Shown here piece after piece: positions 12,559 to 61,547 of a stretch of DNA of 64,000 nucleotides. Within the stretch, counting starts at the first letter, position 1; every line of letters begins with the position of its first letter. The stretch spans positions 2,728,001-2,792,000 of the forward strand of contig NZ_CP119423.1 of NCBI RefSeq assembly GCF_029223585.1. The letters run 5' to 3'. A model generated the notes under the pieces. The model was not told the DNA's origin and did not search any database. It saw only the letters and a list, made by a program, of their open reading frames with translations. The DNA is from Photobacterium sp. DA100 (GTDB lineage Bacteria > Pseudomonadota > Gammaproteobacteria > Enterobacterales > Vibrionaceae). The position numbers and the translations under genes were made by a program.

Positions 12559-12686
12559 CAAGAAATTACATATTTTATTTCATATTTCGTGAAGAAGTGT
12601 CACGATTTTATACCGCATGCATATTTAGAACGCCGTTTTTGATATAGCATCTGACAAATATCACAATAAATAACAAAGCCTTGGTG

Positions 12687-14681
12687 ATGAACCAAAATTT
12701 TTCTCTGTTAGAGTTCCTGCAGACTCCTGTATGGATTTTCGACATTCACCAAAAACGCATTCTCTGGGCAAACTCCGCCGCATTGCCATTGTGGGAAGCG
12801 AAAACTACCGACGAACTCACAGCCCGTGATCTCAGCCTCGATATGTCCGAAGCGGTTGATGCCATATTGGATGGCTACCTAAGCCGTTTCCAGCAGGGAG
12901 AGAAAATCAAGACCTGGTGGTACTTCTCCCCTAACGATGTCATCAAAAAAGCATTATGTTATTTTTCGGGTATGCCCGGTCCCGACGGCAACACTGTCAT
13001 GCTGGTTGAGGTGATCGCCGAAGAAGCCAGCCTGCGCCGAGAGTTGGCGTTCTCAGGCAGCTCAAACCTCGCCTTGCTGTTCGATGAAAGCGGTAGCCTA
13101 ATCAGTGCTAACAACTCTTTTACCCATTCTTTTGGAGAAGATCTCAAAGATCTGGCCAGTTTTCTCGGTGACGCCCAATTGGCTGATAAATGGCTGGCGG
13201 CAGCCCGCAATGAAGGTGTTCTCAAGGCCAAGCGCCTGTGCTGGACCGGAAAAAGTCACCACTGGCTCAATATCGATGGTAAGTGGCTGTCCGATAAGCA
13301 CCAACTGCTCCTGAGCTTGATCAACATCAGCCAGGAAAAAGAACAGCTCCACAAAGCCAAATACAATGCCGAGCATGATTTTCTGACCGGGCTGCTCAAC
13401 CGCCGCGGTATCACGAACGCCATTGTCGAAAATCAGCACAGTCAGCATCCGTATAGCCTGCTATTCCTCGATATAGATGGCTTTAAGCTGGTCAATGATA
13501 CCTATGGCCATGCCATTGGCGACAAACTGCTACGGGCCATCGCCATTCGCTTGCAAGAAGAAGTGAAGTTCAAAGGGTTACTGGCACGATTCGGCGGTGA
13601 TGAGTTTATCGTCCAAGCTGAGCACCGAAATATCGAGAACTCGGCGACGTTTGCTAAGCAGCTGATCAAAGCCCTGAACCGCCCTTTCCACCTCAAGGAG
13701 GTAGGCGAGCTGTCCATTGGTTGCAGTATCGGCACCTCGGACTATCCGACCGATGCGCGGGATATCGAAACCTTGGTAACCCAAGCCGACATGGCTATGC
13801 ACCGTGCCAAGTTACGCGGCCGTAACCGCAGCCACCACTTCTCGCCTGATATGGCAGATGCTCTCTATCGAAAGATGACTCTGCGGCACCACCTGACTCT
13901 GGCCCTAGAAGCCGAGGCTTTCGAGCTCTATTACCAACCGATTGTCGACATGAACTCAAAGTCGCTCAAAGGCTTCGAGGCCTTGATCCGCTGGCACGAC
14001 GAGGAGTTGGGGCAAGTCTCCCCAGGAGAGTTCATCCCACTGGCCGAGGAAACCGGCCAGATTGTCCCGCTTGGTAAGTGGATCCTCAAAACCGCCTGCA
14101 AGCAACTGGCGCTATGGCGGGAAAAATACGGCAAGACGTTTATCATGAGCGTCAACCTTTCCCGTGCCCAGCTGCAATCTAGCTTGGCACCGACCATCGA
14201 AGGGTTGCTGAACCGCTACCAGATCCCTCCGTCACAGCTAGCCTTGGAGCTCACTGAGTCCACCATGCTGCAGGAGTACGATGAAGCTAAACAGTGCTTG
14301 GATGATCTGGCTTCCCTGGGCCTAGAGCTTTATCTCGACGACTTTGGGACCGGTTACTCTTCCTTGTCGCAGCTGCAGGATTTGCCGATCAGCACCGTTA
14401 AACTGGATCAGAGTTTTGTCCAAGGGGAGCACAAAGGCAGCCAGGCGATTATTGAGGCGACCCAGGCCATCTGCGAAAAGCTGGCACTCAAAGTGGTGGC
14501 TGAAGGTGTCGAGACCGAAGCGCAATTGCGTTATTTGCAGCAATGCCGCTTCGACTTCTGCCAAGGCTACTACCTCGGCCGGCCAATGCCAGCCCATGAG
14601 CATGAGGAGCGAAATTTCTCCTTGCTCAACACTATTCCGGAAGCCCCACTACAAGAGCAAAAACCAGAGGTGGTGCAGTAG
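12687..14681 (+). CDS. Dual GGDEF-EAL c-di-GMP signalling protein with PAS-like sensor
   Basis: Cytoplasmic 664-aa protein that could both make and degrade c-di-GMP. Residues about 1-230 hold two PAS-like segments without membrane spans. The GGDEF domain has an intact GGDEF active site at 303-307 but no RxxD inhibitory site before it. The EAL domain has EAL at 431-433 plus the ELTES, DDFGTGYSSL and KLDQSFV motifs needed for metal binding and catalysis. Both halves therefore look active, and the sensor probably sets the net direction. The ATG at 12687 was chosen; an in-frame TTG two codons earlier is possible. Confidence 0.92.
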   Translation: MNQNFSLLEFLQTPVWIFDIHQKRILWANSAALPLWEAKTTDELTARDLSLDMSEAVDAILDGYLSRFQQGEKIKTWWYFSPNDVIKKALCYFSGMPGPDGNTVMLVEVIAEEASLRRELAFSGSSNLALLFDESGSLISANNSFTHSFGEDLKDLASFLGDAQLADKWLAAARNEGVLKAKRLCWTGKSHHWLNIDGKWLSDKHQLLLSLINISQEKEQLHKAKYNAEHDFLTGLLNRRGITNAIVENQHSQHPYSLLFLDIDGFKLVNDTYGHAIGDKLLRAIAIRLQEEVKFKGLLARFGGDEFIVQAEHRNIENSATFAKQLIKALNRPFHLKEVGELSIGCSIGTSDYPTDARDIETLVTQADMAMHRAKLRGRNRSHHFSPDMADALYRKMTLRHHLTLALEAEAFELYYQPIVDMNSKSLKGFEALIRWHDEELGQVSPGEFIPLAEETGQIVPLGKWILKTACKQLALWREKYGKTFIMSVNLSRAQLQSSLAPTIEGLLNRYQIPPSQLALELTESTMLQEYDEAKQCLDDLASLGLELYLDDFGTGYSSLSQLQDLPISTVKLDQSFVQGEHKGSQAIIEATQAICEKLALKVVAEGVETEAQLRYLQQCRFDFCQGYYLGRPMPAHEHEERNFSLLNTIPEAPLQEQKPEVVQ

Positions 14682-14697: not shown

Positions 14698-16586
14698 ATC
14701 GAGTAGGAGGAGGCCTCACGGCCTCCGTCCTCTCACACCACCGTACAAGCGTGGGTCGCATACGGCGGTTCCGAATATATTTTCAGTGACTCATACCCAT
14801 CTCTCAATGAGTACATGCCCATCTCCTTGAACCGTTTCGTTGGCATGGCCTGATTGAGCTGCGGCGATAAAGCCAGATGCCACCATCCTTTCTCTGACAT
14901 CGCTAGCTTCCAAGCATTGCGCTCGTTTACGCCTTCTTGGCGTAACCATATCGCTATGCTGTGTCTGCGTTTTCGCTGCTTGAGTCGGTAGCACCGTAAG
15001 CGCCGTCTTATCCATTCATCCAAGCGCTGCATCGCGCTTTTCCGCATGGCGAGCTTGAAGTAGTGTTGCCAACCTCTTAGATATTGAGTTAGTTCGACTA
15101 TTACTGTCTTCAACTCTCGTCCTCGATTCCGCTTCGTTATTTGACGCACTCGCTTCTTCATGTGAGTTTGTGCTGTCTTCGAGATATGGATACTTCCATC
15201 TCGTTGGAAGCGATGGCCTAAGTAAGTCCGCTCTGTCACTCTTGTTGCTGCACTCTTCTCCCGGTTGACCGTGAGTTTCAGTTTCTGCTCCAAGAACTCC
15301 GTTATCGAGGCTTTTACTCGATTTGCGGCTTCCTCACTGTGCACGTAGATTTGGCAGTCGTCTGCATATCGGCAGAACTTATGCCCTCTTCGTTCAAGCT
15401 CTTTATCCAACTCATCTAATACGATATTTGATAGCAGCGGAGATAATGGGCCACCCTGTGGTGTCCCTCGTTGCCTCTGCTCGACTAACCCGTTTCGCAT
15501 TATGCCTGCCTGTAGGTATGACCTGATCAGCTTCAGTACCCGTTTATCTGTGATATCTTTCGATAACCTGTGCATCAGCCTATCGTGGTTCACAGTATCG
15601 AAGTATTTCGCTAGGTCAACATCGACTACATAACCCCGCCCCTCCCTGATGTAGTGGCTTGCTGCCGCCAGAGCATGGTGGGCACTACGGTTGGGCCTGA
15701 ACCCGTAACTGCTGTTGGAGAACTTAGGTTCGTAGATATCTGTCAGGACTGATGTGATGGCCTGCTGGACGATCCTATCAAGTACCGTTGGGATACCTAG
15801 CTGCCTCACTCCCCCACTAGGTTTAGGGATTTCTACACCCAAGACGGGTTGGGGTTGATAGCTACCGTCCAGAAGGCTCTGGCGGAGCGCTTGCCCATTG
15901 GAAGACTGCCGAAGCACCGAGATAGTGGCTGCTATGTCGAGTTTATCAACCCCAGCACATCCCTTGTTCTTCTTTACTCTTCTCAGGGCTTGGTTCAGAT
16001 TCGTTGATGAACAGATCTGCTCCATCAACTGAGTGGAGGTCACCAAGACTCGTCCTCCTGTCTACGCCAAACATGCTTGTCATTCTTCGTGGCCATGAGC
16101 GTCACTTGCGGTGTTGCCCATTGGTACGTAGAGATATTGTTCATCTTGCTATGACTCCACATGATTGAGTGTCTAATGACTGCTTCTTGATATATTCAGT
16201 TCCGGCCTTCCCTTGGGTTGTACTTCCCCAAGGTACTATGCCTTCTGCTGACTTCTTATTAACCGTCACGCAGCATCACTGCTGCACTAGTCTCGTCCGA
16301 GACAGCTAATAAGATCTCCCGAGGTAAGACGTTGTTCTTTCCCTTGGTTGTGCCTGATTTACCCGTACACACTTCCCGTCGAGGCATTGGGCTATTCTAT
16401 ATATGGCTAGGTTACCCAAGTTGTACTGGCCTACTATCAGATTTCTGTTCGTCACAACCAAGTTTTGCCGTTTGCTTCCTTCAGATCCCACCTCACGGTG
16501 GGCACCCTTGCATAGGCTAACGGTTCTCGCTCGACTGAGCCCGTAGAGGACTTTCACCTCCTAGAACAACGCCATGCTCGGCGCAC
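14698..16586 (-). mobile_element. Group II intron (probable class C)
   Basis: A complete 1,889-bp ribozyme-type retroelement. The 5' end reads GTGCGCC (from 16586 downward) followed by the conserved GAGCATGGCG and GTGAAAGTCCTC segments. The 3' end has a domain V-like hairpin (about 14715-14756) and a domain VI stem ending CCTACTCGAT at 14698. The maturase ORF occupies domain IV and its last codons run into domain V. It lies 8 bases past the stem of an intrinsic terminator, the preferred target of class C introns. Short IEP without an endonuclease domain agrees with that class. Confidence 0.88.
14733..16046 (-). CDS. ltrA: Group II intron reverse transcriptase/maturase
   Basis: Intron-encoded protein needed for splicing and retrohoming. 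The 437-aa product has the RT palm blocks, including DLAKYFDTVNHD, GTPQGGPLSPLLSN and the catalytic YADD at 227-230. A maturase (X) domain follows at about 290-400, ending in the NERNAWKLAMSEKGWW segment. No HNH endonuclease domain is present. Starts at TTG (16046) with AGGAGG seven bases upstream; GTG at 16043 is an alternative. All catalytic residues are intact, so it looks active. Confidence 0.93.
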   Translation of the reverse strand: MVTSTQLMEQICSSTNLNQALRRVKKNKGCAGVDKLDIAATISVLRQSSNGQALRQSLLDGSYQPQPVLGVEIPKPSGGVRQLGIPTVLDRIVQQAITSVLTDIYEPKFSNSSYGFRPNRSAHHALAAASHYIREGRGYVVDVDLAKYFDTVNHDRLMHRLSKDITDKRVLKLIRSYLQAGIMRNGLVEQRQRGTPQGGPLSPLLSNIVLDELDKELERRGHKFCRYADDCQIYVHSEEAANRVKASITEFLEQKLKLTVNREKSAATRVTERTYLGHRFQRDGSIHISKTAQTHMKKRVRQITKRNRGRELKTVIVELTQYLRGWQHYFKLAMRKSAMQRLDEWIRRRLRCYRLKQRKRRHSIAIWLRQEGVNERNAWKLAMSEKGWWHLALSPQLNQAMPTKRFKEMGMYSLRDGYESLKIYSEPPYATHACTVV

Positions 16587-32309: not shown

Positions 32310-32384
32310 ATGGTACAGCAAATTCACCGTCAGCTCTGCGCTTTCTCATCTTGGTGGTGGCACTTCCCAACGCGGGTGGTGTGA
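32310..32384 (+). CDS. trpL: trp operon leader peptide
   Basis: A 24-aa peptide with three consecutive Trp codons at 32352-32360, the sensor for charged tRNA-Trp. AAGGATAG precedes the ATG. Ribosome stalling at these codons would favour pairing of the GCGGGT segment at the end of trpL with the downstream ACCCGC, preventing terminator formation. Confidence 0.95.
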   Translation: MVQQIHRQLCAFSSWWWHFPTRVV

Positions 32385-32410
32385 TTAGCTGTGCCTTAAA
32401 CAGATTACAC

Positions 32411-32437
32411 AAACCCGCCATGACGCGGGTTTTTTTA
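32411..32437 (+). terminator. trp attenuator
   Basis: ACCCGC (32413-32418) pairs with GCGGGT (32425-32430), followed by T7. The alternative antiterminator uses the GCGGGT at 32372-32377 inside the trpL frame against ACCCGC. This is the standard proteobacterial attenuation layout. Confidence 0.92.
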
Positions 32438-32507
32438 TACCAGATTCAGCCTGACAGCAATTTTACCGGGGCGCCTGAGTGAACAGCGCCCTGACAAGGA
32501 AAAGACT

Positions 32508-55040: not shown

Positions 55041-56189
55041 ATGGAAAAATGTCGTAGCCGTAAAATCACCACCCTACTCGCCTTTATAACACCGCTGCTT
55101 TTCATCAGTATCCTGATGGCCGTGACCGCGCTCAAACGCAACTCAGATGTTATTGCCAACAGCCAAAATGAAGTGGCATGGTATGTACTCCAGCTCAACA
55201 AAGAATATGCAGAATTCCACCACCTGCTGCACCGCTACAGTGTTGGCACCAGTGATCATAACGATATGATGCTGCAGTATGAAATTCTATGGAGCCGCTT
55301 CAAGACCATCCTCACCAACACCCATATCAGCCATATTTACCACTTTGACGGCGCCTACCACCAAATCAGCAAGCAGTTTGACTATATCCAGTCCATCGAG
55401 CCGCAGCTACTTGCACTCCAACCGGAGAATGCAGACTCAGACTTGAGCAAGCAGGTCAAGGACAACTACGAAAATCTCGTGGTTTTCCTCAGCCACAAAT
55501 TCCGGCTATCGAGCGGCGATCTGCTCAAAAAAGTAAAAGCGACCCATGCGATGAAAATGCTTATTTATTTCTTGCTCTGCGCCATTGTCCTGCTTGGCGG
55601 GATTTTACTGTGGTCGTTATGGCAAGAGTCTAAGTCGATGCGCAAGCTGGCAATGAGCGATACCTTGACCGGAATTCATAGCCGGTTGTGGCTTAACCAC
55701 CAGCTCACTGAGTTAATCGATACCAAGCAGCCCTTTCGCTTCTACCTGATTGATTTGGATGGGTTCAAGCTGGTCAACGACACCCTGGGTCACCATGCTG
55801 GGGATACCCTGCTGAAAACCGTTGCAAACCGGTTAGCGGCACTGAGCGGGGAGCACTACCACGTCGCCCGGATGGGCGGGGATGAATTTGCAGTTATCGA
55901 ATTGCTCGCGGTGCAACACGAAATCAATATCAGCCAAAAACTACTCAACAGTTTCCAGCAGCCGGCAATGTTGAATGGCAAACCTTTCGCTATTTCTGCC
56001 AGTATCGGCAGCAGCGAATACCCGCTCAATGCATCAAGCATGAGTGAAGTACTGCAACAAGCTGATTTCGCGATGTATGAAGTCAAACAACGGGGAAAGA
56101 ATGGGGTGCTGGACTATCAGCAATCCGCCCCCGCAACCGATCCCGGCACGACTTCTTCTAACGTCAAGCCATTCTCGAAAAGTGTGTAA
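55041..56189 (+). CDS. Membrane diguanylate cyclase with periplasmic sensor domain
   Basis: 382 aa. Membrane segment 1 at about 10-28, a periplasmic helical region at about 30-170, membrane segment 2 at about 172-195, then a cytoplasmic GGDEF domain with the active site GGDEF at 279-283. No RxxD inhibitory site precedes it. Together with the upstream periplasmic protein it looks like a two-gene sensor unit that makes c-di-GMP in response to an external cue. Confidence 0.9.
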   Translation: MEKCRSRKITTLLAFITPLLFISILMAVTALKRNSDVIANSQNEVAWYVLQLNKEYAEFHHLLHRYSVGTSDHNDMMLQYEILWSRFKTILTNTHISHIYHFDGAYHQISKQFDYIQSIEPQLLALQPENADSDLSKQVKDNYENLVVFLSHKFRLSSGDLLKKVKATHAMKMLIYFLLCAIVLLGGILLWSLWQESKSMRKLAMSDTLTGIHSRLWLNHQLTELIDTKQPFRFYLIDLDGFKLVNDTLGHHAGDTLLKTVANRLAALSGEHYHVARMGGDEFAVIELLAVQHEINISQKLLNSFQQPAMLNGKPFAISASIGSSEYPLNASSMSEVLQQADFAMYEVKQRGKNGVLDYQQSAPATDPGTTSSNVKPFSKSV

Positions 56190-57818: not shown

Positions 57819-59327
57819 CTATTGCTTGATCCAGGCATCTTGCCAAGCAGAACCGTATCCCGGTTCGTAGTGATACGGCGAGTCGATGTTGCACCAGCCG
57901 CCTTCAGGGAAAGGACGGCACTGGTAGGTATTGCCATCGCGGCCGAGTACCACAGTCTGGCCCGGTACATAGCTACCGATACCTTCAGGGTAGGCATAAT
58001 CATAATCCCCACCACCTGAGCTCTCCTTGATAGTGATTGACTTGGCCTCGACCACCTGTTGCTCGTTGCTAGCCGGATCTGTCGCCGTCACTACCACGCT
58101 GAACGACCCCGTCTGATTGGTAGACAGTGACATACCAACACTGCTGTTATTGATAACATCATTGTCCGATGCCAATTGCTGGCCGGTGCTATCAAGCAGC
58201 GCCATGTTAATCTTGTAGTGCCCCTCAGAGCTCACCGTGGCTTCGATGTGAGCTTTACCGTCAGCCCCCAAGGTGTATTGACTTTCCAGCCCTTGGACGG
58301 TTACCGGCGCAGGCTCAATCACATCCCCATCACGCACATCGAGAGCGTAGCTATAATCTGGGTTGGTGACAAAAACCTGGTTGGCATACAGATCAGATGG
58401 CTGGTAAACGATATCGCCGGAGGCTTGTTCCACACCGATTTGAGTCACAGTCGGGTATGTCTCGTTGATCAACTGGGCCAGATCATATGACCAGGTATTG
58501 ATGTTCTCGTTTGTGGCTGTGATTGACAGCTTCTCGAAAACAATTTCTGAGCCTTGTTTATTGAAGATCCGGAACCAGATGCTGTCGCCATCCTGGGCTT
58601 CTACCCCAGGCTTGACGTATTGGCCCTTAGAGGTCCACTCCGGCGGCAGCACTTCACCGTCAAAACGGATATCGCTACAGTTGTAGAAGCCTTCACCGAC
58701 CGGATCATTACGCTGCCAGCGGGTTACCAGCGTGGCATCACCACTGCGACCGCTTGGCAAGGTCACATTGATTAGGTAATACTGGCCGTTGCCTTCCTCC
58801 GTCACTGCTACATTGCCTGCAGTATCAATCAGCTCCAGATCATCCCAATCCAAACGACTATGGGCAGCATTGTAGCCCGGCTTGGTCAGGTAGAACTGCC
58901 AGAAGCTCGGGTTATGCGGGGCGGTTGCGCGGTAGCGCAAGGTGAAGGTCTCACCAGCTTTCATCTCAGTACGCTGCCAGTGCTCAGAGGCCACGCTCAT
59001 GCCGCTCTTGCGCGTGTCGCCACCAGAACAGATAGCCCCATCGGGCACTGCGGCTTTGACGGCATCCATATTGTTGTAATTCGGTACCAAGGCTGCAAAC
59101 TCGTTCTTCTGCACCAATGGATAGGTCCCCGATTCCAAAAATGACGCGCGGCACGCCTCATTCGGGATCTGCGAGCCATCAGATGGGCCCCAGTGGCCGC
59201 CATCTGATTCACAAATCACTTGGCGGGCTGCTGGGTACTCAGCATAGCCGTGGGCATTGACGTGAAGTGAAGAAAGGGCTGCCATGACTGACATTGCGCC
59301 CAACGAAAAGTGAATAACTTTATTCAT
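57819..59327 (-). CDS. gbpA: GbpA, secreted chitin-active LPMO / N-acetylglucosamine-binding protein
   Basis: A 502-aa secreted protein for attachment to chitin. The signal peptide ends at Ala25 so that His26 becomes the N-terminus; with His138 (TAPHNPSFW) it forms the copper histidine brace of AA10 monooxygenases. Residues about 26-205 are the LPMO domain, 210-415 two GbpA middle domains, and about 440-502 a C-terminal chitin-binding module rich in Trp/Tyr. In V. cholerae GbpA leaves by type II secretion. A c-di-GMP riboswitch precedes it. Confidence 0.95.
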   Translation of the reverse strand: MNKVIHFSLGAMSVMAALSSLHVNAHGYAEYPAARQVICESDGGHWGPSDGSQIPNEACRASFLESGTYPLVQKNEFAALVPNYNNMDAVKAAVPDGAICSGGDTRKSGMSVASEHWQRTEMKAGETFTLRYRATAPHNPSFWQFYLTKPGYNAAHSRLDWDDLELIDTAGNVAVTEEGNGQYYLINVTLPSGRSGDATLVTRWQRNDPVGEGFYNCSDIRFDGEVLPPEWTSKGQYVKPGVEAQDGDSIWFRIFNKQGSEIVFEKLSITATNENINTWSYDLAQLINETYPTVTQIGVEQASGDIVYQPSDLYANQVFVTNPDYSYALDVRDGDVIEPAPVTVQGLESQYTLGADGKAHIEATVSSEGHYKINMALLDSTGQQLASDNDVINNSSVGMSLSTNQTGSFSVVVTATDPASNEQQVVEAKSITIKESSGGGDYDYAYPEGIGSYVPGQTVVLGRDGNTYQCRPFPEGGWCNIDSPYHYEPGYGSAWQDAWIKQ

Positions 59328-59397
59328 GTTTAGCTTCCATTATGATTATTGTGGGAAGCCAGCTAACGGGAAGAAGCCACTGCTTTTATCTTGCTTT

Positions 59398-59510
59398 TCC
59401 CAATCAGGTAACCCCGCTACCATAGAGGCAAATCATTGAAACAAACATGACCGCTCCTTAGGCCGGAAGTTTTGCGCCCTATCCTTTCAGATAATTAGCC
59501 TTTAGCTGAC
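59398..59510 (-). ncRNA. c-di-GMP-I riboswitch (GEMM-I) in the gbpA leader
   Basis: On the minus strand the conserved core reads GGGCGCAAAACTTCCGGCCT (59460-59479), preceded by a hairpin with a GAAA tetraloop (about 59480-59494), and followed by GGTAGCGGGGTTACC (59407-59421), the two hallmark segments of GEMM-I. Homologous to the Vc1 riboswitch upstream of V. cholerae gbpA. Downstream, GCTTCC (59354-59359) can pair with GGAAGC (59333-59338), the ribosome site of gbpA, so translational control is likely. Confidence 0.93.
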
Positions 59511-59753
59511 GATACAAAAATAGGTCACTTCAATTTGTTGGTTCGCCTTGAACCGCTCGATTAAAGAACCCGGTTATATTTATAGTGTGTTTCTAATTCA
59601 CCACAAAAAATTATAAATTAACAATGGAATGGCGATCTCATTTAATTCACAGTTATTAATATTAATAAATTAATTTGACGAGATGTAATATTTCATTCAC
59701 CTAAAAACATTCACCCTACAAATAATAATCCAGCCAAACCAACATGAATAATA
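59511..59753. other. AT-rich intergenic region upstream of the gbpA riboswitch
   Basis: About 240 bp between the riboswitch and the end of the kinase gene. It must contain the gbpA promoter. No gene or clear motif seen. Confidence 0.5.
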
Positions 59754-61547
59754 TTAGTGCACAGAGATGGTAAGTTGCACAATAACAATAAAAAACAAAC
59801 AGAGCGATACGACTTTCCAGAACCTGACCGGGTTCTTGCTTTTCAAACAACGTCCACTTGCCTGCTTCATTATTTCAGCCGAAGGATGGAACAAATCACC
59901 GGCGAGTTCAGAAAAGGCCGCATAACGCAGATTGGCTTGAGGAAAGCACCCTTTTCGTATCACCAGGTCTAACCAGGATGGCAGATCGCGGCGGTAATTC
60001 CCCAAAGGTATATATTCCGGCCATCGGCTTATAGCCGGTGACGATGTAACAGTCTTAGAAAAAGAATAGGGAAAATGCCCGGTCAACATCTCGTAAATAA
60101 TGATAGATACAGAATACATGTCAGACCTCATGGACAATTCTCCCCCAGACAAACACTCTGGTGATAAATATTTAATATCACCAACGGGTACGGTTTCCAC
60201 TATAGGGGTATGTATTTCATCAAAGTGTTCAGAATAAACTGAACCAAAGTCAATAATAACAATTTGATCAAGTTGATTAACGATAAGGTTTTCTGGTTTG
60301 ATATCGCGGTGAATAAGGCGATGACGCTGCAAAACACGAAGTGACTTAATTATCTCCTCTGCCATTAGCCGCACTTCACCTAAATCTGGCTTGGGGTTAT
60401 CGTCCATCCACTGACGTAATGTTTTTCCTTCAACCCAATCACAGACATGATATAGAAAGGGGGAATGACGGGAAAAAGGATGAATCTTCATTATCCGCGG
60501 GTTAGATATCTGCTCCCCCAACCAACCCTCGCGAACGAACCCTTGCAAATACTGATAGTCCTCTGCAAAATTCAGTGAGGGCATCTTCAGTACATAGCGT
60601 TTAGTGTCAAATTCACTGACCGCCAAATAAACATGGCTCCGTGGGCCGCTGTGCAATACCCGCAGAATACGGTACTGGTCAATCCGGTTGCCTTCTTCCA
60701 GTACCGGCGGGATCACCCGCCCAGTCAACTCCTCAATATATTCATCCATGGTCAGGCTTGGCAGCGACTGGACTTCAAGCAGCACACTCGAGACATTGTC
60801 CTGGCTGCCCGATGCCAGTGCGGCCTCCACCAGCTGGCGAGCTTGCTGTTCGGCTGGCAAAACGGCCGCGGACAAAATTTGCTGCAGTTCGGCTTCGCCC
60901 AACCACTCGTGGATGCCGTCTGTTACCAACAGCAGCCGGTCAGCATGCTCTAGCCGTATTTGCTGGAAATCGACTTCAATGTGGCTGTCCATGCCCAGCG
61001 AGCGAGTGAGAAAAGACTGCTGACCATATAGCTGGCGACGGTGATCTTGGGTAAGTGGAATCAGGGTCTGATTACGGTAGAGATAGGCTCGCGTATCTCC
61101 CACATGCATTATATAAGCCGTATTGAACTTGATGATCACGGCGCAAAAGGTAGTTACCAAGCCGTTATGCTGCAGCTCGGATTGGCAGCTCTGAGAGTAA
61201 AGCCATTGGTTCAGGGCATGCAGCACTTTGCCTGCTGACTGCTTCACCCCCCAGGTTTTTGGCGTTGCATAGTATTCTTCGACAAACTGACTCACACTGA
61301 TCTGGCTCGCTCGCTGCCCCTGCTCGCTGCAGCTCACCCCGTCTGCCAGGCAGGCAACGACCCCTTTGTGTACCAGTTCATCACGCTGCGCAGGCTGGCA
61401 GATTGCAAACGCATCTTGGTTACTGGGCTTACACCCGGCCACCGAATACCCGCCAAAGTCCAACTTTAGGGTATTGGTCCTTGAAGCCCATTCCCCCCTA
61501 TCCGCTCTCTGGTGGGATATGCCTTCTGGCCCAGTTGTGTTATCCAT
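59754..61547 (-). CDS. Bifunctional PP2C phosphatase - Ser/Thr protein kinase
   Basis: A 597-aa fusion. Residues about 28-265 are a PP2C phosphatase with SNQDAF, CLADGVS, HVGDTRAYLYR, LLVTDGIHE and GSQDNVS metal motifs. Residues about 289-560 are a protein kinase: Lys in YVLKMPS, HRDIKPEN with the catalytic Asp at 415, DFG in IDFGSVY, and SPE in place of APE; the glycine loop is degenerate (HSGPRSHV). A C-terminal membrane segment (about 575-595) anchors it. It follows the nitrate transporter gene on the same strand, suggesting control of nitrate uptake or reduction. Confidence 0.9.
   Translation of the reverse strand: MDNTTGPEGISHQRADRGEWASRTNTLKLDFGGYSVAGCKPSNQDAFAICQPAQRDELVHKGVVACLADGVSCSEQGQRASQISVSQFVEEYYATPKTWGVKQSAGKVLHALNQWLYSQSCQSELQHNGLVTTFCAVIIKFNTAYIMHVGDTRAYLYRNQTLIPLTQDHRRQLYGQQSFLTRSLGMDSHIEVDFQQIRLEHADRLLLVTDGIHEWLGEAELQQILSAAVLPAEQQARQLVEAALASGSQDNVSSVLLEVQSLPSLTMDEYIEELTGRVIPPVLEEGNRIDQYRILRVLHSGPRSHVYLAVSEFDTKRYVLKMPSLNFAEDYQYLQGFVREGWLGEQISNPRIMKIHPFSRHSPFLYHVCDWVEGKTLRQWMDDNPKPDLGEVRLMAEEIIKSLRVLQRHRLIHRDIKPENLIVNQLDQIVIIDFGSVYSEHFDEIHTPIVETVPVGDIKYLSPECLSGGELSMRSDMYSVSIIIYEMLTGHFPYSFSKTVTSSPAISRWPEYIPLGNYRRDLPSWLDLVIRKGCFPQANLRYAAFSELAGDLFHPSAEIMKQASGRCLKSKNPVRFWKVVSLCLFFIVIVQLTISVH

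Follow-up and report, generated by a model that had tools for sequence, protein, structure and literature searches.

The leader of a gbpA-like gene in a 64,000-nucleotide stretch of the Photobacterium sp. DA100 genome (NZ_CP119423.1, positions 2,728,001 to 2,792,000; the whole stretch is called the window here) combines an aptamer of the class that senses cyclic diguanylate (c-di-GMP) with a conserved hairpin over the Shine-Dalgarno (SD) sequence of the gene, which encodes a lytic polysaccharide monooxygenase (LPMO). We lean, with some reserve, toward the view that together they make up a c-di-GMP-I riboswitch whose platform acts on translation and turns it OFF. In the proposed mechanism the 5' strand of the aptamer-closing helix P1 would pair, when no ligand is present, with a downstream strand as helix X, which would occupy part of the anti-SD strand and loosen the SD hairpin; once c-di-GMP is present, P1 (GUCAG/CUGAU) would close the aptamer, X would be lost, and the freed UGGCUUCC would mask GGAAGCUA, so that less LPMO would be made. 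A further hairpin, Z, located between P1 and X, would draw their strands together. What we infer in this scheme is the identity of the ligand, its binding, the sign of the response and the effect on the gene. The evidence that was computed is of four kinds: a match to the aptamer model, strands of X and of the anti-SD helix that are conserved among leaders, a compensatory change that occurs twice, and energies from folding.

Aptamer match and ligand-contact segments

The Rfam model RF01051 matches the leader over its full length (model positions 1-87 of 87) with 63.5 bits, well above the gathering score of 35 (E = 4.4e-10), bearing out the c-di-GMP-I riboswitch core that a first-pass annotation of the window had placed upstream of gbpA. 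The spacing between the aptamer and the start codon (59327) is 76 bases, and P1, read from the leader sequences, has 5 bp here and 4-5 bp across the ten aptamer-bearing leaders described below. The ligand-contact segments GGC, GCGCAAA and GGUUACC agree with the consensus in the RF01051 alignment; we take them to lie at the ligand contacts of the Vibrio cholerae aptamer Vc2, and we assume that the G found instead of A before GC speaks against a pocket of the cyclic GMP-AMP type in the window aptamer. The contact residues of Vc2 are given as G20, A47 and C92 in PMC4744006. Judged by its sequence, the sensor is thus of a known class, c-di-GMP-I, here in a Photobacterium leader. A 14-codon open frame (59448-59404, minus strand) also runs through the aptamer, with AAGGAG before its ATG and its stop codon in the 3' strand of P1; by eye no such frame occurs in the other aptamer-bearing leaders, and it was taken as chance.

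Conservation of the masking hairpin and of putative helix X

Fifteen leaders of close gbpA-like genes from 14 genomes were compared, the encoded proteins being 58-100% identical over at least 340 residues among the matches listed. The aptamer is present in ten (G000, the window genome, and G012, G033, G027, G001, G005, G014, G034, G038 and G037; 56.8-69.5 bits), and RF01051 finds none in the other five (G019, G036a, G036b, G050 and G024). The SD sequence GGAAGC (59338-59333) is complementary to GCTTCC (59359-59354), and the masking hairpin is kept in 14 of the 15 leaders. When these 14 are aligned (G024, which is without an anti-SD strand, was left out), the UGGCUUCC/GGAAGCUA helix has standard pairs in 96.4% of cells, compared with 22-62% when the strands are slid by one to three columns. 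This conservation, together with the folds below, upholds the earlier claim that a GCTTCC hairpin can mask the ribosome site of the gbpA-like gene; the support comes from conservation, not from covariation. The pattern RCTGGCTTCN{8,24}GGAAGYT has one match in G000, which is this leader, and two in the reversed control; it has at least one match in 31 of 52 genomes of the genus, and because these also lie outside gbpA-like leaders the pattern alone is a weak argument. As far as sequences can tell, the masking hairpin exceeds chance, and conservation is the stronger argument for it.

Helix X would join GUCAGCUAA (59510-59502) to UUAGCUGGC (59366-59358) through 9 bp, one of them G-U, and since the 5' strand of P1 is part of X the two helices are mutually exclusive. 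The run spans 8-9 pairs in 13 of the 14 leaders and 6 pairs in G050. At one position of X, 12 leaders have a C-G pair and two, the aptamer-less G036b and G050, have U-A, and on the protein tree this change needs two events. The covariation score of X is 0.065 compared with 0.035 after shuffling (reached by 2 of 500 shuffles), and 93.6% of its cells are paired compared with 92.4% (reached by 34 of 500). The conserved place of X and the repeated compensatory change are moderate evidence that the helix may form, and the comparison suggests that the aptamer and the masking hairpin are linked through X, better than through the pairing proposed at first pass. There, it was suggested that GGGAA (59401-59397) pairing with the second TTCCC (59357-59353) could release the ribosome site. 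Both motifs, like the two hairpin motifs, are indeed at these positions; the pairing itself was rejected, as its probability in the G000 ensemble is at most 0.005 (0.005 unconstrained, 0.000 with P1 forced and 0.000 with X forced). GGGAA instead pairs with the first UUCCC (59372-59368) with a probability of 0.74-0.97 in the G000 ensembles, and by eye it is present at the matching place in only one of the ten aptamer-bearing leaders, GGAA being found in seven.

This alternative partner belongs to hairpin Z, formed by GGGAAAAGC and GCUUCUUCCC. In a swap test, duplexes of Z strands with their own partners averaged -8.1 kcal/mol and those with swapped partners -5.5 kcal/mol, and 26 of 5000 permutations were as good. 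The matrix covered seven of the ten aptamer-bearing leaders (G027, G034 and G037 were left out) and included identical strands (G033 equals G001, and one strand of G000 equals that of G012); for G033 and G001 the best Z partner was not their own.

Folding of the two states

The folds, which omit coaxial stacking and tertiary contacts of the aptamer, place the SD under stronger masking when P1 is formed. With P1 forced, the anti-SD pairing has a probability of 0.90-1.00 in all ten aptamer-bearing leaders; with X forced, it ranges from 0.00 to 0.97. Opening the SD costs more in the P1 state than in the X state for all ten under each of three settings (differences of 1.9-5.5, 1.5-6.5 and 0.1-2.75 kcal/mol), and imposing the complete aptamer on G000 gives a cost of 6.85 for P1 against 2.49 for X. 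X reaches 0.44-0.99 in the unconstrained ensembles of six of the ten leaders (0.63 in G000), and when the forced states are compared X is the lower one in seven. From an OFF switch it would follow that a leader without its aptamer leaves the gene on, by keeping X or by losing the anti-SD strand, and the folds agree with this in part: X lowers the SD-opening cost from 5.28 to 3.84 in G036b, from 4.67 to 1.46 in G050 and from 4.82 to 4.44 in G019.

Several observations weigh against an OFF switch built in this way. No pair of the anti-SD helix is changed on both sides in the 14 leaders. X has a single covarying pair, the count of its pairs changed on both sides is equalled by 225 of 500 shuffles, and within single leaders its run is reached by 2-71 of 400 shuffles, or 371 of 400 in G050. 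Since X shares bases with the anti-SD strand, part of its effect on the SD simply follows from geometry. Nor does X necessarily abolish the anti-SD hairpin, which can persist beside it in shortened form: with X forced, the anti-SD pairing still has a probability of 0.97 for G005 and of 0.59-0.60 for both G027 and G033. Unconstrained X is at most 0.07 in G034, G033, G027 and G001, and in the last three the P1 state is the lower one even with no ligand, by 0.6-3.8 kcal/mol. In the aptamer-less G036a X raises the SD-opening cost from 2.99 to 3.93, which leaves the aptamer-less leaders mixed overall. Among known systems, the c-di-GMP-I riboswitch Vc1, which precedes gbpA in V. cholerae, is described as an ON switch by PMC4744006. 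For Vc2, PMC4545359 cites a reporter whose output increased with c-di-GMP when the host was heterologous, against the OFF label that Vc2 bears in PMC9262584.

The report on Vc1, and the preference of three of the ten leaders for the P1 state without ligand, would fit an ON switch like Vc1, in which c-di-GMP raises translation via a rearrangement outside secondary-structure folding. We give this explanation a minor though appreciable chance. It has to accommodate the highly probable anti-SD helix found in every aptamer-bearing leader with P1 forced and the virtual lack in G000 of the release pairing discussed above; furthermore, the 13 Vibrio leaders that were read have, by eye, different platforms, and Vc1 is described in PMC4744006 as having no apparent anti-SD, so that the sign of Vc1 need not carry over. 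Regulation through transcription or mRNA decay (access of Rho or RNase), with the SD hairpin secondary, is very improbable, as the conserved pairing is centred on the SD and no terminator-like site was found in 59300-59760.

Distribution and loss of the aptamer

RF01051 is present in 41 of the 52 genomes of the genus. The aptamer state of the 15 leaders changes five times on the protein tree, from which the outgroup row G224 was left out, having fallen inside the ingroup. The X and anti-SD strands are both kept in four of the five aptamer-less leaders; the fifth, G024, lacks the sequence that would connect the 5' part of P2 with the loop preceding the SD, the anti-SD strand included. No RF01051 match was found in the leaders of nine other Photobacterium LPMO genes (L115, L116 and L118-L124), which are not among the 15 and two of which, L121 (G004) and L124 (a second copy in G005), encode proteins that match the window protein at 67% and 63% identity over ~220 residues, nor in 25 LPMO leaders of other genera; Vibrio GbpA-type genes do carry it, in the 13 leaders mentioned.

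This distribution bears on whether the anti-SD hairpin and X might instead be a constitutive leader structure, serving to protect the 5' end or to keep basal translation low, with little effect of the aptamer. The four leaders in which both strands outlast the aptamer favour such a structure, the five state changes suggest a dispensable aptamer, and by eye several leaders have a TATAAA-like stretch shortly before X, which possibly places X at the mRNA 5' end (a consensus scan found no promoter-like site in the window). We nevertheless hold it to be unlikely, given that ten of the 15 leaders have an aptamer over the cut-off and that P1 and X exclude each other.

In the tandem copies of G036 (L112 and L113) other sequence stands in place of the aptamer region; UAUCGGAUGAG is common to both, and neither has an Rfam match at E 0.01. 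The sequence now in that place may be what is left of a decayed aptamer, or it may be a different sensor, an exchange of sensor being conceivable because the sensor region was replaced and X kept, in one copy by compensatory change. The wider proposition that the platform has outlived its aptamer several times, perhaps with a swapped sensor in G036, and that its sign in the aptamer-bearing species is reversed relative to V. cholerae, is doubtful. In two leaders (L034 1648-1806 in G033, and G027:C1:299706-299865) the loop of hairpin Z contains a 159-base repeat that is probably a small transposable element; among the matches listed it has 6 copies in G033, 17 in G027, 5 in G001 and none in G000 and G012.

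The downstream gene and genomic context

The features of the leader and its gene are collected in Table 1.

Table 1. Elements of the gbpA-like leader and the gene that follows it, in window coordinates
Feature	Position	Strand	Basis
c-di-GMP-I (GEMM-I) aptamer	59404..59510	-	Rfam RF01051 match
GUCAGCUAA, 5' strand of P1 (GUCAG) and of putative helix X (all nine bases)	59502..59510	-	sequence, complementarity, conservation
CUGAU, 3' strand of P1	59403..59407	-	sequence
GGGAAAAGC, 5' strand of predicted platform hairpin Z, directly after P1	59393..59401	-	folds, swap test
GCUUCUUCCC, 3' strand of predicted platform hairpin Z, directly before X	59368..59377	-	folds, swap test
UUAGCUGGC, 3' strand of putative helix X, overlapping the anti-SD strand	59358..59366	-	complementarity, conservation
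UGGCUUCC, anti-SD strand	59354..59361	-	96.4% of cells paired with SD strand, 14 leaders
GGAAGCUA, SD strand of the gbpA-like gene	59331..59338	-	sequence, pairing
gbpA-like LPMO gene, 502 amino acids	57819..59327	-	Pfam, NCBIfam below cut-off, PDB relatives

The 502-residue protein exceeds the Pfam cut-offs for LPMO_10 and GbpA_2 and falls just under that for GbpA_D3 (23.4 against 27). Relatives of it that carry a species name, among them those of P. rosenbergii (85%) and P. lutimaris (83%), point to the genus Photobacterium. The first-pass name gbpA is right as to the kind of protein, a GbpA-like LPMO, and approximate otherwise: the NCBIfam GbpA equivalog NF009690 gives 231.9 bits against a cut-off of 481, and one Vibrio GbpA that passes it, with 746 bits, is 30% identical to the window protein over the matched part, for which reasons gbpA-like is the safer name. 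The same annotation had counted two GGDEF proteins as nearby ligand sources. Both open reading frames are present (12648-14678, plus strand, and 55041-56189), but the first also has an EAL domain (239 bits) and may therefore degrade c-di-GMP in addition to synthesising it.

Genome G000 has three c-di-GMP-I aptamers, of which the window copy scores lowest. The second (L001) precedes a gene with TfoX_N and TfoX_C domains, and the third (L002 1501-1584) a GH18 chitinase gene (Glyco_hydro_18 and ChitinaseA_N), so that c-di-GMP may govern more than one of the genes with which this genome attacks chitin. Upstream of the leader, TGAGATCGCCATTCCA (59640-59625, minus strand) recurs by eye, with variation, before several related genes and is a possible regulator site. 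The upstream gene (59754-61547, minus strand) encodes a PP2C phosphatase fused to a protein kinase domain. Rfam matches over cut-off in the window also include group II intron domains and a Trp operon leader (16204-16502, minus strand, and 32346-32438, plus strand).

Comparison with known c-di-GMP-I riboswitches

VC1722, the gene behind Vc2, is presumably tfoY, and the primary paper on Vc2 (Inuzuka 2018) reportedly names masking of the ribosome-binding site in its title. PMC9262584 describes Vc2 as an OFF switch of translation in which P1 is the decisive element; if our model holds, the Photobacterium platform would work as Vc2 is described there, but before a GbpA-type gene. Vc2, likened here by description only, has another downstream gene; G000 has a copy of its own in front of the TfoX-domain gene. 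Cd1 of Clostridioides difficile, a transcriptional c-di-GMP-I OFF switch, belongs to the same aptamer family; it uses a terminator, according to PMC9262584, and no terminator-like site was found in 59300-59760 here.

Vc1 is of the same aptamer class and likewise precedes a gene for a GbpA-type chitin-binding LPMO, although the window gene fails the GbpA equivalog cut-off. Vc1 binds c-di-GMP and is reported to act as ON, and its authors (PMC4744006) see no apparent terminator or anti-SD and call the mechanism unclear, whereas the Photobacterium leaders have a conserved anti-SD hairpin and are predicted to act as OFF. According to PMC4545359, c-di-GMP also represses the promoter of V. cholerae gbpA, a separate effect that does not depend on Vc1. 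In the 13 Vibrio GbpA-type leaders the region that separates aptamer from gene differs, by eye, from the one described here (no search for X-like pairing was made in them). A literature search with few subscription papers in scope found no paper on this Photobacterium leader. The riboswitch class and the kind of target gene are thus known, and the platform would be new, with a sign predicted to be opposite to that of Vc1. Because this leader has an explicit anti-SD strand and a recognisable connection from it to P1, whether c-di-GMP controls translation of a GbpA-type gene can be tested directly, and the leaders with and without aptamer provide a natural experiment on the loss of a switch.
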